From NCBI GenBank assembly GCA_022826485.1, contig JAJDUU010000009.1, positions 1-64,000 on the forward strand: 64,000 nucleotides of DNA, read 5' to 3'. The notes beneath the pieces were generated by a model. The model was given only the letters and a program-made list of their open reading frames with translations. It had not been told where the DNA came from and made no database searches. The stretch comes from Chloroflexota bacterium (GTDB taxonomy: Bacteria > Chloroflexota > UBA11872). This document shows, one piece after another, positions 2,589 through 62,340 of this stretch. The translations under genes and the position numbers were made by a program. The stretch's first letter is position 1. Each line of letters opens with the position of its first letter.

Positions 2589-4286
2589 GTGACGAGCGAC
2601 GGAGCGGCAGGCGCCGGGCGGGCGGCGGGGCAGCGGTCCCAGCGGCAATACATCTTCGTAACCGGCGGCGTTGTCTCGGCCATCGGCAAGGGCGTGACCG
2701 CCGCCAGCATCGGTCGCATGGTCAAGAGCCGCGGGCTGCGCGTGTCGATCATGAAGCTCGATCCGTATATCAACGTGGACCCCGGCACCATGAGCCCCCT
2801 CGAGCACGGGGAAGTGTTTGTCACGGTCGACGGCGCCGAGACCGACCAGGACCTGGGTCATTACGAGCGGTTCGTGGACGAGAACCTGACCGGGGCCAGC
2901 AACCTCACGACCGGCGGGGTCTACGACCGCGTGATCACCCGTGAGCGGCGGGGGGACTTCCTGGGCGGCACGATTCAGGTGATCCCGCACGTGACCGACG
3001 AGATCAAGGCGCGCATTCGAGACGTGGGCGACGGCGACGATCCCGACATCGTGATCGTGGAGGTCGGCGGCACGGTGGGCGACATCGAGAACATTCCGTT
3101 TCTCGAGGCGCTGCGGCAGCTGCGCCGCGAGGTCGGCATGCGCAACGTGCTGTTCGTGCACGTGACGCTGGTGCCGCGGCTCGGATCGACGCTCGAACTC
3201 AAGACCAAGCCCACCCAGCACAGCGTGCGGGAGCTGCGAAGTATCGGCATTCAGCCGGATGTGGTGGTCTGCCGCTCGGACGACGAACTCACGCCGGAGC
3301 TGGTCGACAAGATTGCGCTGTTTGCCGACGTTGAATCGCGGGCCGTGATTTCGAACCCGGAGGTGGCGTCCATCTACGAAGTCCCGCTGGTCCTGGAAGA
3401 GGCGGGCCTGGGGGCCTTCATCACCGAGCACTTCGGCCTCGGCGACGTGACGCCGGATCTCGACGAGTGGCGCGCCACGGTGGATGCATCGCTGGATCGC
3501 ACCGTGCCCGAGCTCGAGATCGCCATCGTCGGCAAGTACATCTCGCTGCCCGACGCCTACCTGAGCGTGGTGGAGGCGGTCCGCCACGCCGGCATTGCCT
3601 GGAAAGTCCGGCCGGTCATCCGCTGGGTCGATTCGGAAGAGCTCGAGGACCGCGATCCCCATGACTTGCTGGCCGGGGTCGCGGGCATCATCGTGCCGGG
3701 CGGATTCGGACCGCGGGGCATCGAGGGCAAGATCATGGCGGCCCACTACGCGCGCACGCACAAGGTGCCGTACCTGGGGCTCTGCCTGGGCATGCAGGTG
3801 GCCGTGATCGAATTCGCGCGCAAGGTGCTCGGCACCGACGATTGCACCAGCATCGAGTTCAACCCGGACACGGCGCATCCGGCGATACACCCGATGCCGG
3901 AGTACTATCACGTGGCCAACAAGGGCGGCTCGATGCGCCTGGGCGCGTGGCGCTGCGACCTGGTGGCCGGCACGCAGGCCCAGCGCGTCTACGGCGCCGC
4001 CAGCATCGAAGAACGACACCGGCACCGCATGGAAGTCAACAACAACTACCGCGATATCCTGCGTTCGCAGGGCATGACCCTCAGCGGCCTGTCGCCGGAC
4101 GGCGCACTGGTGGAGATCGTGGAGTTGGACCACCATCCATGGTTCGTCGGGTGCCAATTTCATCCGGAGTTCGCCTCGCGGCCGACACGCCCGCATCCGC
4201 TGTTCTGGGGATTCCTGGAGGCGGCGGTGCGGCACGTGGAAGGTCGGCATCCCGTGCCAGAATCGGTGCCAGAGGTGACCGGCTGA
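2589..4286 (+). CDS. pyrG: CTP synthase
   Basis: Converts UTP to CTP using ATP and glutamine, the last step of pyrimidine nucleotide synthesis. 565 aa from GTG 2589. The N-terminal synthetase domain opens with YIFVTGGVVSAIGKGVTAAS after a 20-residue Gly/Ala/Arg-rich extension. The C-terminal class I glutaminase domain has the nucleophile Cys in GLCLGMQ and the His/Glu pair in FHPEF. It is slightly longer than the usual 530-550 aa because of the N-terminal tail. It follows the degenerate MBL gene by 6 nt and lies 92 nt before purA. Pyrimidine genes of the UMP pathway are nearby but in a separate transcription unit with its own attenuator. Confidence 0.97.
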   Translation: MTSDGAAGAGRAAGQRSQRQYIFVTGGVVSAIGKGVTAASIGRMVKSRGLRVSIMKLDPYINVDPGTMSPLEHGEVFVTVDGAETDQDLGHYERFVDENLTGASNLTTGGVYDRVITRERRGDFLGGTIQVIPHVTDEIKARIRDVGDGDDPDIVIVEVGGTVGDIENIPFLEALRQLRREVGMRNVLFVHVTLVPRLGSTLELKTKPTQHSVRELRSIGIQPDVVVCRSDDELTPELVDKIALFADVESRAVISNPEVASIYEVPLVLEEAGLGAFITEHFGLGDVTPDLDEWRATVDASLDRTVPELEIAIVGKYISLPDAYLSVVEAVRHAGIAWKVRPVIRWVDSEELEDRDPHDLLAGVAGIIVPGGFGPRGIEGKIMAAHYARTHKVPYLGLCLGMQVAVIEFARKVLGTDDCTSIEFNPDTAHPAIHPMPEYYHVANKGGSMRLGAWRCDLVAGTQAQRVYGAASIEERHRHRMEVNNNYRDILRSQGMTLSGLSPDGALVEIVELDHHPWFVGCQFHPEFASRPTRPHPLFWGFLEAAVRHVEGRHPVPESVPEVTG

Positions 4287-59085: not shown

Positions 59086-60852
59086 CTAGCCGTCGGCATC
59101 GAAGCCGAGCGTGTCGTGCGCGCGTGACGCGACGACGGGTTGCACGGCATTCAGGAAGTCGTCCAACGGCATGCCCTTGAGGTCCTCGCCGGTGCGGAGA
59201 CGGACGGAGACGTGTCCCGCGGCAATGTCGCGGTCGCCGGCGACGAGCATGTAGGGCACCTTCTGGAGTTGGGCGTCGCGGATCTTGCGGTTCATGCGTT
59301 CGGACCGCGCATCGAGCTCGGTGCGGAGCCCCGCGGCACGCAGTTTCTCGACCACGCCTTGGCCATATTCCGCGTGGCGGTCGGCAATGGGGATCACCAC
59401 GGCCTGCACGGGCGACAGCCAGACCGGGAACGCTCCGGCGAAGTGCTCGATGAGGATGGCCGTGAAGCGCTCGATCGTCCCCATGATGGCGCGGTGGACC
59501 ATCACGGGACGCTCGCGGCTGCCGTCGGCGGCCTCGTAGCTGATGTCGAACCGCTCCGGCAGATTGAAGTCCACCTGGATGGTCGTGAGCTGCCAGGTGC
59601 GGCCGATGGCGTCGACCAGATGCACGTCAATCTTGGGTCCGTAGAAGGCCGCCTCGCCCGGGACGCGGCGGTACTCGAGGCCGTGGCGGTCCAGGGCCTC
59701 GACCAGTCCCCCCTCGGCCAGCTCCCATAGCTCGTCGTCCCCGGCGTATTTGTCGCGCTCGTCGTCGGCGCGCACGCTCACGTCGATGGCGTAGTCCGCA
59801 AACCCGAACGTGCCCAGGATCATCTGGGTGAGGTCGATGACCCCGCTAACCTCGTCCACGAACTGGTCCCGACGGCAGAAGATGTGGGCGTCGTCCTGCG
59901 TCATGCCGCGCACGCGCAGCGCCCCGTGCAGCGTGCCCGAGCGCTCGTAGCGATACACGGACCCCAGCTCGCCCAGTCGCAGCGGCAGGTCGCGGTAGCT
60001 CCGCGTGCCCGACGCAAAAATCTGCACGTGGAACGGGCAGTTCATGGGCTTGTTGATGAAGGTCTGGTTCTCCAGCTCCATCTCCGGGAACAGCCCATCA
60101 GCGAAGAACTGCGTGTGCCCGCTGGTTTCCCACAGCTCCTTGCGGCCGATGTGGGGCGAGTAGACGAGGTCGTACCCGCGTCGCCGGTGCTCGACGCGCC
60201 AGAAGTCCTCCAACGTCTCGCGGATCACCCCGCCCTTGGGATGCCACAGCACCAAGCCCGCGCCGACCAGCGGGTTGAAGGAGAACAGGTCGAGCTGGCG
60301 CGACAGCAGGCGATGGTCGCGCTTCTTGGCCTCTTCGAGCCGTTGCAGATGCGCCTTGAGCTCGGCCCGCGTGGGAAAGGCCGTGCCGTAGATGCGCTGC
60401 AACTGCGGCCGCCGCTCGTCCCCGCGCCAGTAGGCGCCGGCTATGGACAGGAGCTTGTAGGCGCCGATCTCACCCGTCGATTCGACGTGGGGCCCGCGGC
60501 AGAGGTCGACGAAGGGACCGGACGTATACGTCGTGAGCGTCTCGTCCGGCGGCAGGTCGTCGATGAGCTCGATCTTGAACGACTGTCCCTGCTCGCGGAA
60601 TTGGTCGAGCAACTCCGAGCGCTCGTGCTCCGCGTACTCGAAGGGATAGTCCGCCGCCACGTGCTTGCGCATCAGCGCTTCGAACTGCTTCAAGTCGTCG
60701 GGCGTGAGCGCGCGCGGCAGCAGGAAGTCGTAGTAGAAGCCGTCGTCCGTGGGCGGTCCGATGCCGAGCTCGGCGTCTGGAAAGACGTCGAGCACGGCTG
60801 TGGCCAGCACGTGCGCGGCGGAGTGCCGCATGCGGGAGAGCGCGTCGTTCAT
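59086..60852 (-). CDS. thrS: Threonyl-tRNA synthetase lacking the TGS domain
   Basis: Charges tRNA-Thr. 588 aa, shorter than the usual 640 because the N-terminal TGS (N1) domain is absent; the protein opens at the editing domain with RMRHSAAHVLA (HxxxH) and DLCRGPHVEST (Cys/His of the editing site). Class II motifs: NQTFINKPMNCPFH with the zinc Cys, YRYERSGTLHGALRVRGMTQDDAHIF, MVHRAIMGTIERF. A C-terminal anticodon domain is present. It is preceded by a leader ORF and terminator (60899-61029). AAGGA is found 11 nt before the ATG. Confidence 0.95.
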   Translation of the reverse strand: MNDALSRMRHSAAHVLATAVLDVFPDAELGIGPPTDDGFYYDFLLPRALTPDDLKQFEALMRKHVAADYPFEYAEHERSELLDQFREQGQSFKIELIDDLPPDETLTTYTSGPFVDLCRGPHVESTGEIGAYKLLSIAGAYWRGDERRPQLQRIYGTAFPTRAELKAHLQRLEEAKKRDHRLLSRQLDLFSFNPLVGAGLVLWHPKGGVIRETLEDFWRVEHRRRGYDLVYSPHIGRKELWETSGHTQFFADGLFPEMELENQTFINKPMNCPFHVQIFASGTRSYRDLPLRLGELGSVYRYERSGTLHGALRVRGMTQDDAHIFCRRDQFVDEVSGVIDLTQMILGTFGFADYAIDVSVRADDERDKYAGDDELWELAEGGLVEALDRHGLEYRRVPGEAAFYGPKIDVHLVDAIGRTWQLTTIQVDFNLPERFDISYEAADGSRERPVMVHRAIMGTIERFTAILIEHFAGAFPVWLSPVQAVVIPIADRHAEYGQGVVEKLRAAGLRTELDARSERMNRKIRDAQLQKVPYMLVAGDRDIAAGHVSVRLRTGEDLKGMPLDDFLNAVQPVVASRAHDTLGFDADG

Positions 60853-60898
60853 GGGAGAGATCCTTCGTCAGGTGAGGGGCGGGCCGAAACCGGCCGGG

Positions 60899-60927
60899 AA
60901 AATAAAATCGCCCGGCGGTGCCGGGCG
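60899..60927 (-). terminator. Intrinsic terminator (attenuator) in the thrS leader
   Basis: On the minus strand CGCCCGGC-ACC-GCCGGGCG then ATTTTATTTT, ending 47 nt before thrS. Strong stem plus U-tract within a leader points to attenuation rather than an operon end. Confidence 0.82.
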
Positions 60928-60929
60928 TG

Positions 60930-60970
60930 GCCCCCGCGGCGCGGCGCGCTTGCCGCGGCCCAGCGGGGGC
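60930..60970 (-). promoter_or_regulatory. Second leader hairpin overlapping the leader-peptide stop
   Basis: GCCCCCGC (60970-60963 on the minus strand) pairs with GCGGGGGC (60937-60930) around a GC-rich interior. The first arm begins at the last base of the leader ORF stop codon, so ribosome position would govern whether it forms. CTGGGC just downstream could alternatively pair with GCCCGG of the terminator. Pairings judged by eye. Confidence 0.6.
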
Positions 60971-61029
60971 TAGGCAGTGACGCGGATCTCACGCAGTGGC
61001 GTGCAAATGCTTCGACTGCAAATGACCAT
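60970..61029 (-). CDS. thrS leader peptide (19 aa), putative
   Basis: ATG 61029 to TAG 60970 encodes MVICSRSICTPLREIRVTA. It holds two Thr codons, one of them the second-last sense codon, and two Cys codons. There is no usable Shine-Dalgarno, but TAGCAT (TANNNT) stands 6 nt before the ATG, which fits a leaderless transcript. The ORF is followed by two hairpins and a U-tract, then thrS, the layout of ribosome-mediated attenuation. Too short for the track. Inference from layout; translation is not shown. Confidence 0.6.
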   Translation of the reverse strand: MVICSRSICTPLREIRVTA

Positions 61030-61035
61030 GGCGGG

Positions 61036-61041
61036 ATGCTA
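61036..61041 (-). promoter_or_regulatory. Candidate -10 (TANNNT) for the thrS leader
   Basis: TAGCAT directly after the obgE stop and 6 nt before the leader ATG. Spacing suits transcription starting at or near the ATG. No -35 found. Confidence 0.4.
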
Positions 61042-62340
61042 TCACAGCCCTTCGGCCTCCCATTCGAACTCCAACTCGCCGATCACGACGGTGTCTCCGG
61101 GCTCGGCGCCGGCCTTCTCCAAGCGCGCGGTGACGCCGCTGCGGTCGAGGCGGCGCTGGAAATAGTCGACGGCGTCCGGCGTGTCGAGCTTGAGCTGTCG
61201 CGCCAGCCGCTCGAGCACAGGGTCCCGGATGACGTAGGCCCCGTCGGCGCGACGAAACAGGCGCGGGGCATCGTGCACCGGTTCGGGGCGCAGCACGGGC
61301 GGGGCCGTCGGCTGGGGACGGGCCGGCTCCGGAGCTTCGGCCAGCGTGCCCAACGTGCGCTGAATCAGCGTCGCGATCCCGTCGCCGGTGGCCGCCGACA
61401 CCGCCACCGGCTCGCTCCCGCGCGTGCGGCACTCGGCGGCAAAGTCGCTCCACCCGGCGCGCGATTCGGCAAGGTCGATTTTGTTGAAGGCCACGATCTG
61501 CGGTCGCGACTCGAGGCCGGCGCCGTGGCTTGCCAGCTCGTGATCAATGGCGTCCAGGGCTTCGAGCGGCGGTCGCTCCAGGCCCGAGCCGTCCACCACG
61601 TGAATGAGCACGCGCGAGCGCCTGGCGTGGCGCAGGAATTGGGCGCCGAGACCGGCTCCCTCGCTGGCGCCCTCGATCAGCCCCGGCAGATCGGCGACGA
61701 CCAGGTGCGTGTCGCTGGCGACGACGACGCCTAGGACGGGTTGCAGCGTGGTGAAGGGATAGGGCGCAACCTTCGGCCGGGCGTCGCTGAGACGGGTCAA
61801 GAGCGAGGACTTGCCGGCGTTGGGCGCGCCCACGAGACCGACGTCGGCGATCAACTCGAGCTCAAGACGCAGATGGCCTTCGTCGCCGTCCGCGCCCCGT
61901 AGGGCAATGTCGGGCGCCGTGAAGCGCGACGACTTGAACCGCGCGTTGCCGCGTCCACCCTGCCCGCCGTGGGCGACGACCTCGACCTGGCCGACCTCCA
62001 CCAGGTCGTGGAGCACCTGCGAGGTCGCATCGTCGTACACGACCGTGCCGAGCGGGACGTCGATGGCGGCGGGCTTGCCGTCCCGTCCCTGGCGCAGGCT
62101 GCGCTGGCCAGGCGCCCCGTTGCCGGCGATGAAGCGATGGCGGTATTGCAGGTGCGTGAGGGCATGCAGGTTCTCGCGCGCCCGGATCAGCACGTCGCCG
62201 CCGCGACCGCCGTCCCCACCGTCGGGTCCGCCCAGCGGCACGTGCTTCTCGCGGCGGAAGCTCGCCGCGCCGTCGCCGCCGCGCCCGGCGCGCACGTAGA
62301 CGCGGGCCTGGTCGAAGAAGTTTGCCGTGGAGTCAGGCAT
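61042..62340 (-). CDS. obgE: GTPase Obg/CgtA
   Basis: Ribosome-associated GTPase. 432 aa from ATG 62340 (MPDSTANFFDQARVYVRAGRGG). Glycine-rich Obg fold GRGGDGAASFRREKHVPLGGPDGGDGGRGGDV, G1 GAPNAGKSSLL, G3 DLPGLIEGA, G4 NKID, and a C-terminal OCT domain (AYVIRDPVLERLARQLKLDTPDAVDYFQRRLDRSGV). The stop is just before the thrS leader. obgE and thrS may be partly cotranscribed. Confidence 0.95.
   Translation of the reverse strand: MPDSTANFFDQARVYVRAGRGGDGAASFRREKHVPLGGPDGGDGGRGGDVLIRARENLHALTHLQYRHRFIAGNGAPGQRSLRQGRDGKPAAIDVPLGTVVYDDATSQVLHDLVEVGQVEVVAHGGQGGRGNARFKSSRFTAPDIALRGADGDEGHLRLELELIADVGLVGAPNAGKSSLLTRLSDARPKVAPYPFTTLQPVLGVVVASDTHLVVADLPGLIEGASEGAGLGAQFLRHARRSRVLIHVVDGSGLERPPLEALDAIDHELASHGAGLESRPQIVAFNKIDLAESRAGWSDFAAECRTRGSEPVAVSAATGDGIATLIQRTLGTLAEAPEPARPQPTAPPVLRPEPVHDAPRLFRRADGAYVIRDPVLERLARQLKLDTPDAVDYFQRRLDRSGVTARLEKAGAEPGDTVVIGELEFEWEAEGL

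Follow-up and report, generated by a model that had tools for sequence, protein, structure and literature searches.

In Streptomyces lividans TK24, RNA-seq revealed a leader gene, thrL, upstream of thrS; it is leaderless and encodes 18 residues with two threonines (PMC8079986). Leaders of leuS, trpS and alaS of S. lividans were described as well (PMC8079986), and classical attenuators had been predicted earlier for trpS and leuS of Streptomyces (PMC1262725). T-boxes have been described in Chloroflexi, and in Firmicutes thrS is under T-box control (PMC3766115, PMC2494555). In a literature search that covered only a minority of subscription papers, we found no thrS leader peptide in Chloroflexota. 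A switch of the kind proposed below is thus known, Streptomyces having a similar one at thrS; the present one is in another phylum.

Here we describe a candidate of this kind in a window of 64,000 nucleotides from the MAG of an uncultured Chloroflexota bacterium, in which all features of the locus lie on the minus strand. The regulated gene would be thrS (59086-60852; Pfam PF07973, PF00587 and PF03129), encoding threonyl-tRNA synthetase, and the upstream gene is obgE (61042-62340; PF01018, PF01926 and PF09269). For this ThrS, Pfam shows the second additional, core and anticodon-binding domains only; the TGS domain gave no Pfam match, and the protein is without an N-terminal TGS. Between the two genes we found, in minus-strand order, TGTGATAGCAT, the leader ORF, hairpin A, hairpin T, a U-tract and 46 nt containing the Shine-Dalgarno sequence AAGGA (60861-60865) of thrS, which follows. 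By sequence and conservation, TGTGATAGCAT (61036-61046) is a putative extended -10 promoter that overlaps the obgE stop codon: the TGA is at 61044-61042, TAGCAT is at 61041-61036, and TGTGA lies just 5' of TAGCAT. The leader ATG at 61029 is 6 nt downstream of the -10 element and 12 nt past the obgE stop. A reading of the locus from the sequence alone (the sequence-only reading) had noted a TANNNT 6 nt before the ATG and suggested leaderless transcription; TAGCAT is this element, and its spacing fits a predicted leaderless transcript that would start at the A of the leader ATG or an adjacent base. Since the obgE stop is so close to the leader ATG, re-initiation at this ATG on obgE read-through transcripts is possible.

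The leader ORF (60970-61029, stop included), recognized by its sequence and its ATG-to-ACT spacing, has 19 codons and encodes MVICSRSICTPLREIRVTA. As the sequence-only reading stated, threonine is at codons 10 and 18, which we found to be ACG and ACT, respectively. The latter (60976-60978) is the proposed control codon. ACT is rare in this genome, making up 22 of 615 Thr codons (3.6%) in window ORFs with GC3 above 0.75, and the three neighbouring genes do not use it in any of their 78 Thr codons. Nevertheless, each of the 19 loci with the leader has ACT shortly before the CCCC of hairpin A, within a conserved core, NNC-ACT-NNC, after which the CCCC follows. Because ACT is rare yet invariant while the flanking codons vary, the pattern suggests that a rare codon has been selected, or else that the bases as such are constrained. 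The peptide between the start and the control codon is poorly conserved among relatives, which would be expected if the control codon alone matters.

The ATG-to-ACT distance is 51, 48 or 45 nt in three lineages and changes in whole codons only. The ORF, which would be translated in the mechanism proposed below, is kept in frame in 16 of the 18 loci of the window's family. The chance that an open ATG lies in frame at the observed position or 5' of it is ~0.02 in each of the three lineages, values that are not to be simply multiplied since the lineages share ancestry; the start codon of the sister-family leader is uncertain. Within the genus, substitutions in the leader ORF showed no third-position bias (7/4/6 by codon position). 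It had been noted that two Thr codons without a run are atypical for such a leader, and the count of the window peptide is indeed not above chance (P = 0.24). This oddity is partly explained by the relatives, where leaders contain four threonines in the sister genus and three to four in the sister family, and by the invariant codon being the rare ACT. Examples of Thr-rich leaders, each closed by a stop codon, are MRYPSCETPRATRTATI (Thr 4/17), MMRTPPRREPQRGRTATT (4/18) and LNSLQNIPRLKTTITTAPS (4/19), with P ~0.01 each. In the sister-genus leader ORF (for example at L009), AGCTGCGAGACGCCTCGCGCCACACGCACCGCCACT is invariant across nine genomes, synonymous sites included; it contains a 5-pair hairpin, GCGAG-ACGC-CTCGC, 15 nt before ACT, the position expected of a pause hairpin. 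A hairpin within the leader ORF is visible in several species, but with z ranging from +1.2 to -2.3, and the claim of a pause hairpin was dropped.

Downstream of the control codon, the stop codon overlaps the first hairpin, as had been seen before: hairpin A (60930-60970) begins at the G of the TAG, and the CCCC beside the stop codon pairs with a GGGG. We propose from its fold and covariation that hairpin A acts as an anti-antiterminator. Only two bases separate it from hairpin T (60909-60927), a putative terminator stem, CGCCCGGC-ACC-GCCGGGCG, with 8 G-C pairs and a loop of 3, which is followed by the U-tract ATTTTATTTT (60899-60908). The second hairpin with a U-tract before thrS that the sequence-only reading had described is therefore present in the window's species (60927-60899), and the earlier description of the locus proved correct in its details. 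Together, A and T (60973-60899, 75 nt) fold at -51.7 kcal/mol, compared with -39.1 (sd 3.2) for dinucleotide shuffles, giving a z of -4.0 with 0 of 200 shuffles as good. A single terminator-like match is unremarkable here, as 4 were observed in 9 kb and 3.7 were expected; T is the sole one of the four with 8 G-C pairs. In hairpin A, both partners of 3 of 8 base pairs have changed between lineages and 94% of cells are paired, and its covariation score was reached by 0 of 500 shuffles and lost with slid pairings, in an alignment that is a hand-made composite of the two arms and is biased towards the structure. At the position of hairpin T, a stem of differing sequence is kept in the sister genus and the sister family. 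All six genomes examined from the window's genus have the U-tract, as do L024 and L061 of the sister family; it is absent in the sister genus. The order after the ACT core is conserved: first the CCCC of A, then the GGGG with which it pairs and, after a short gap, a CCC at the start of T.

Our search for thrS covered the 41 genomes available for the class, together with further genomes of the phylum. We found the layout in 16 of the 18 thrS loci of the window's family, six from the genus and ten from the sister genus. Of the other two, L020 is without it, and L010 has unrelated sequence there, beside a contig end. In the sister family, three of five loci have it (L021, L024 and L061), and L022 and L023 do not. 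The promoter, TGTG[AC]TA[GC]NNT, is retained in the 16 family loci and the three sister-family loci, with the ATG 6, 7 or 14 nt downstream within the window's family. A tblastn search upstream of thrS in the sister family found no obgE; thus promoter, leader and hairpins travel with thrS and not with obgE. One contig of a same-genus MAG, JAPPNP010000003.1 (RHO3_bin_74), has the locus at the matching position, and a search of genome contigs for the exact REIRVTA-plus-TAG pattern gave only one relevant match, in the same-genus MAG. A further match to this pattern in an Acidobacteriota contig is without the hairpin layout and was rejected. A 36-base match in contig 51, considered as a possible second copy in the genome, was also rejected, since it consists of GC-rich hairpin sequence in a different operon and has no leader. 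Comparison across relatives thus shows the ORF, the ACT codon, both hairpins and the promoter, and the conservation of frame and hairpin that the sequence-only reading had proposed to examine was found for both.

Because the layout, the ACT codon, the frame-preserving lengths and the compensatory changes recur across relatives, the attenuator is well supported, and we conclude that this locus probably is a threonine-responsive leader-peptide attenuator of thrS. In the mechanism that we infer, from translation and stalling through to termination and the threonine response, transcription would start at or beside the leader ATG. When charged tRNA-Thr is plentiful, the ribosome would complete the 19-codon ORF and leave, so that hairpin A, and then T behind it, could form and transcription would end short of thrS. 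Under a shortage of charged tRNA-Thr, the ribosome would wait with the rare ACT in its A site. A ribosome footprint extends to +15, counted from the first P-site base. The footprint of the stalled ribosome would then cover the basal CCCC of hairpin A and open this hairpin, and the freed strands could pair with the 5' arm of T; a GGG next to CCC is found in all loci, and in the two nearest genomes the alternative pairing would be GCYGGGC with GCCCGGC. With T blocked, the polymerase would continue into thrS, giving more enzyme when threonine is short.

The exact form of the switch, which is not as well supported, was modelled in folding tests. In the sister genus, where the switch pairing is GGCG.GGGC-NNN-GCCC.CGCC, the unmasked T hairpin (folded through the tail) has a probability of 0.93-0.99, with 0.58 at L018. 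Under a ribosome mask with ACT in the A site, it was 0.05 or lower in 7 of 9 loci, the exceptions being L016 (0.15) and L017 (0.96). As a control, such a drop was seen in 5-6% of random pairs of hairpins with matching geometry. We give this result moderate weight as evidence for a switch, because random pairs reach this level and the sister-genus loci are closely related. It also counts against the model that this genus, with the sharpest predicted switch, is the one that has no U-tract. In the window's genus, where T is much stronger, the T hairpin remains under every ribosome mask at equilibrium. The E. coli trp and thr attenuators likewise keep their terminators under every mask, and the equilibrium test is therefore not decisive for the window's genus. 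In a nascent-RNA test, in which the RNA is folded before the 3' arm of the terminator is made, the ACT stall takes pairing of the 5' arm of T (region 3) in the window's sequence from 0.34 up to 0.94; stalling in E. coli trp gives 0.30 to 0.62. L024 of the sister family showed the opposite trend, from 0.82 free to 0.35 stalled. What had been read as a ribosome-mediated attenuator stands as to the leader with its Thr control codon and the conserved hairpins, and the stall may prevent termination, the required pairing being predicted for the window's nascent RNA and not at equilibrium.

With the ribosome at the stop codon, region 3 is paired at 0.68 in the window's species (L003) versus 0.01 in E. 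coli trp and thr. The classical trp/thr geometry, in which a ribosome at the stop blocks the antiterminator, is thus not found in the window's species. This geometry marks the classical subtype and not all leader-peptide attenuators. Since the stop codon precedes region 1 and hairpin A, a ribosome waiting there should, by this model, also antiterminate, unlike in E. coli trp and thr, and termination should need ribosome release.

Another reading keeps threonine sensing by the leader and changes its output, which would be Rho-dependent termination or mRNA decay before thrS, the hairpins serving to protect or to pause. The sister genus, which retains the ORF, ACT and hairpin A yet is without the U-tract, fits this idea, as do the Streptomyces thrS leader, which is likewise reported to lack a U-tract after its hairpin (PMC8079986), and the suggestion of Rho for Actinobacteria leader peptides without terminators (PMC1262725). 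The strong stem with a U-tract in the window's whole genus and in two sister-family loci argues against it, and we regard it as unlikely, though worth keeping in mind. More radically, the structure might be an ordinary obgE terminator with a strong upstream hairpin, the ORF being fortuitous and thrS constitutive. GC-rich DNA forms hairpins easily, and the Thr count of the window peptide is not significant. Nevertheless, sister-family thrS genes without obgE upstream still have the promoter, ACT, hairpin A and a terminator, and in three lineages the ORF begins close to where transcription is predicted to start. Furthermore, a consensus promoter scan from hairpin T to thrS found no promoter-like site, although the same scan also misses the extended -10 element. 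Taken together, these observations make an obgE terminator quite improbable.

The hairpins could also be an operator bound by threonyl-tRNA synthetase through tRNA mimicry, with no need for leader translation. E. coli thrS is autoregulated through an RNA operator. In the loci studied here, the loops of A and T keep no Thr anticodon and their sequences vary freely between lineages, and both hairpins are located far 5' of the thrS ribosome site, which is not where an E. coli-type operator lies; we consider this explanation very improbable indeed.

The absence of a T-box at the window's thrS, claimed earlier, is borne out by an Rfam search: RF00230 gave no match at the gathering threshold and none up to E = 10 in 60800-61200, and no other Rfam family was found in the obgE-thrS spacer. 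The same search detects T-boxes at trpE of the window's genome and at thrS of other families. At trpE, the T-boxes of the window's genome and three relatives (L068, L069, L070 and L071) score 66-76 bits, below the gathering score, which indicates that the lineage has T-boxes, though not at thrS. In these genomes, hom, trpE and pheS had no evident leader peptides. In the other families, thrS T-boxes carry GGGTGGAACCRCG, with Rfam matches at L025, L037, L039, L045 and L056, some below the gathering score. L025 has T-boxes at 3286-3527 (minus strand), upstream of thrS, and at 3741-4028 (plus strand). A tRNA gene lies just upstream of its thrS T-box, and tRNA genes also precede thrS in L027, L045 and L056.

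In a further family of the class (L026, L028 and L030-L032), thrS is preceded by a leader whose peptide keeps the stretch RCIARIT. This leader lies about 300 bases upstream of thrS and has a GTG start, the peptide MYRxxGFxxxxRCIARIT and Ile-Thr-Thr-Thr (ITTT) codons. Its pairings are ATCACC with GGTGAC, GACGAGAGG with CCTCTCGT, and CCTCTCGT with ACGAGAGG, the last followed by a U-run. Region 3 is paired at 0.80-1.00 when the ribosome is stalled at Thr and at 0.39-0.51 when it is at the stop. By these modelled pairings, this thrS leader is a textbook attenuator of the classical 1:2, 2:3, 3:4 type. A similar locus (L035) is on a contig of a sister-genus genome, G014, where two contigs (C12 and C22; L035 and L036) carry two extra thrS-like genes, one with a leader of the further-family type; these extra genes are probably bin contamination.

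A more specific view of the attenuator is that it belongs to a stop-proximal type, in which the single rare ACT and the stop codon together set the dwell time of the ribosome, and that thrS control in this class has switched between the T-box and at least two attenuator builds. We put this forward tentatively, as a possibility that is rather doubtful. If it is true, the leader would respond to slow decoding at ACT, perhaps along with slow termination, and not to a run of Thr codons. A single rare codon beside the stop seems to carry the sensing, and changing one base can probe it. With this attenuator, Chloroflexota would join the groups in which a tRNA synthetase gene is controlled by leader-peptide attenuation. 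A small clade with either a T-box or a leader peptide at the same gene would allow the replacement of RNA sensors to be studied.

Compared with known systems, the window's leader is like S. lividans thrL (MKRVRPFLETTPGFVPAR, PMC8079986) in its gene, its leaderless start (predicted here), its short peptide with two threonines and a hairpin downstream. The S. lividans leader differs in having one hairpin and no U-tract, adjacent Thr codons and an unrelated peptide, whereas the window, in another phylum, has two hairpins with a U-tract and one invariant ACT before the stop. The thrL-thrABC leader of gamma-proteobacteria (RF00506) shares with the window's leader Thr codons and, as proposed here, alternative hairpins and a terminator, but it regulates biosynthesis and has eight Thr codons, while the window leader precedes thrS. 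In addition, a ribosome at the stop of thrL leaves region 3 free (0.01), whereas in the window the stop precedes region 1. E. coli pheM-pheST resembles the system proposed here as leader-peptide attenuation of an aminoacyl-tRNA synthetase gene, and differs in its Phe codons, sequence and phylum. The T-box (RF00230) controls thrS, as proposed for the window's leader, in other families of the phylum and class, and trpE in the window's genome; it binds uncharged tRNA directly, and the window spacer is without one.
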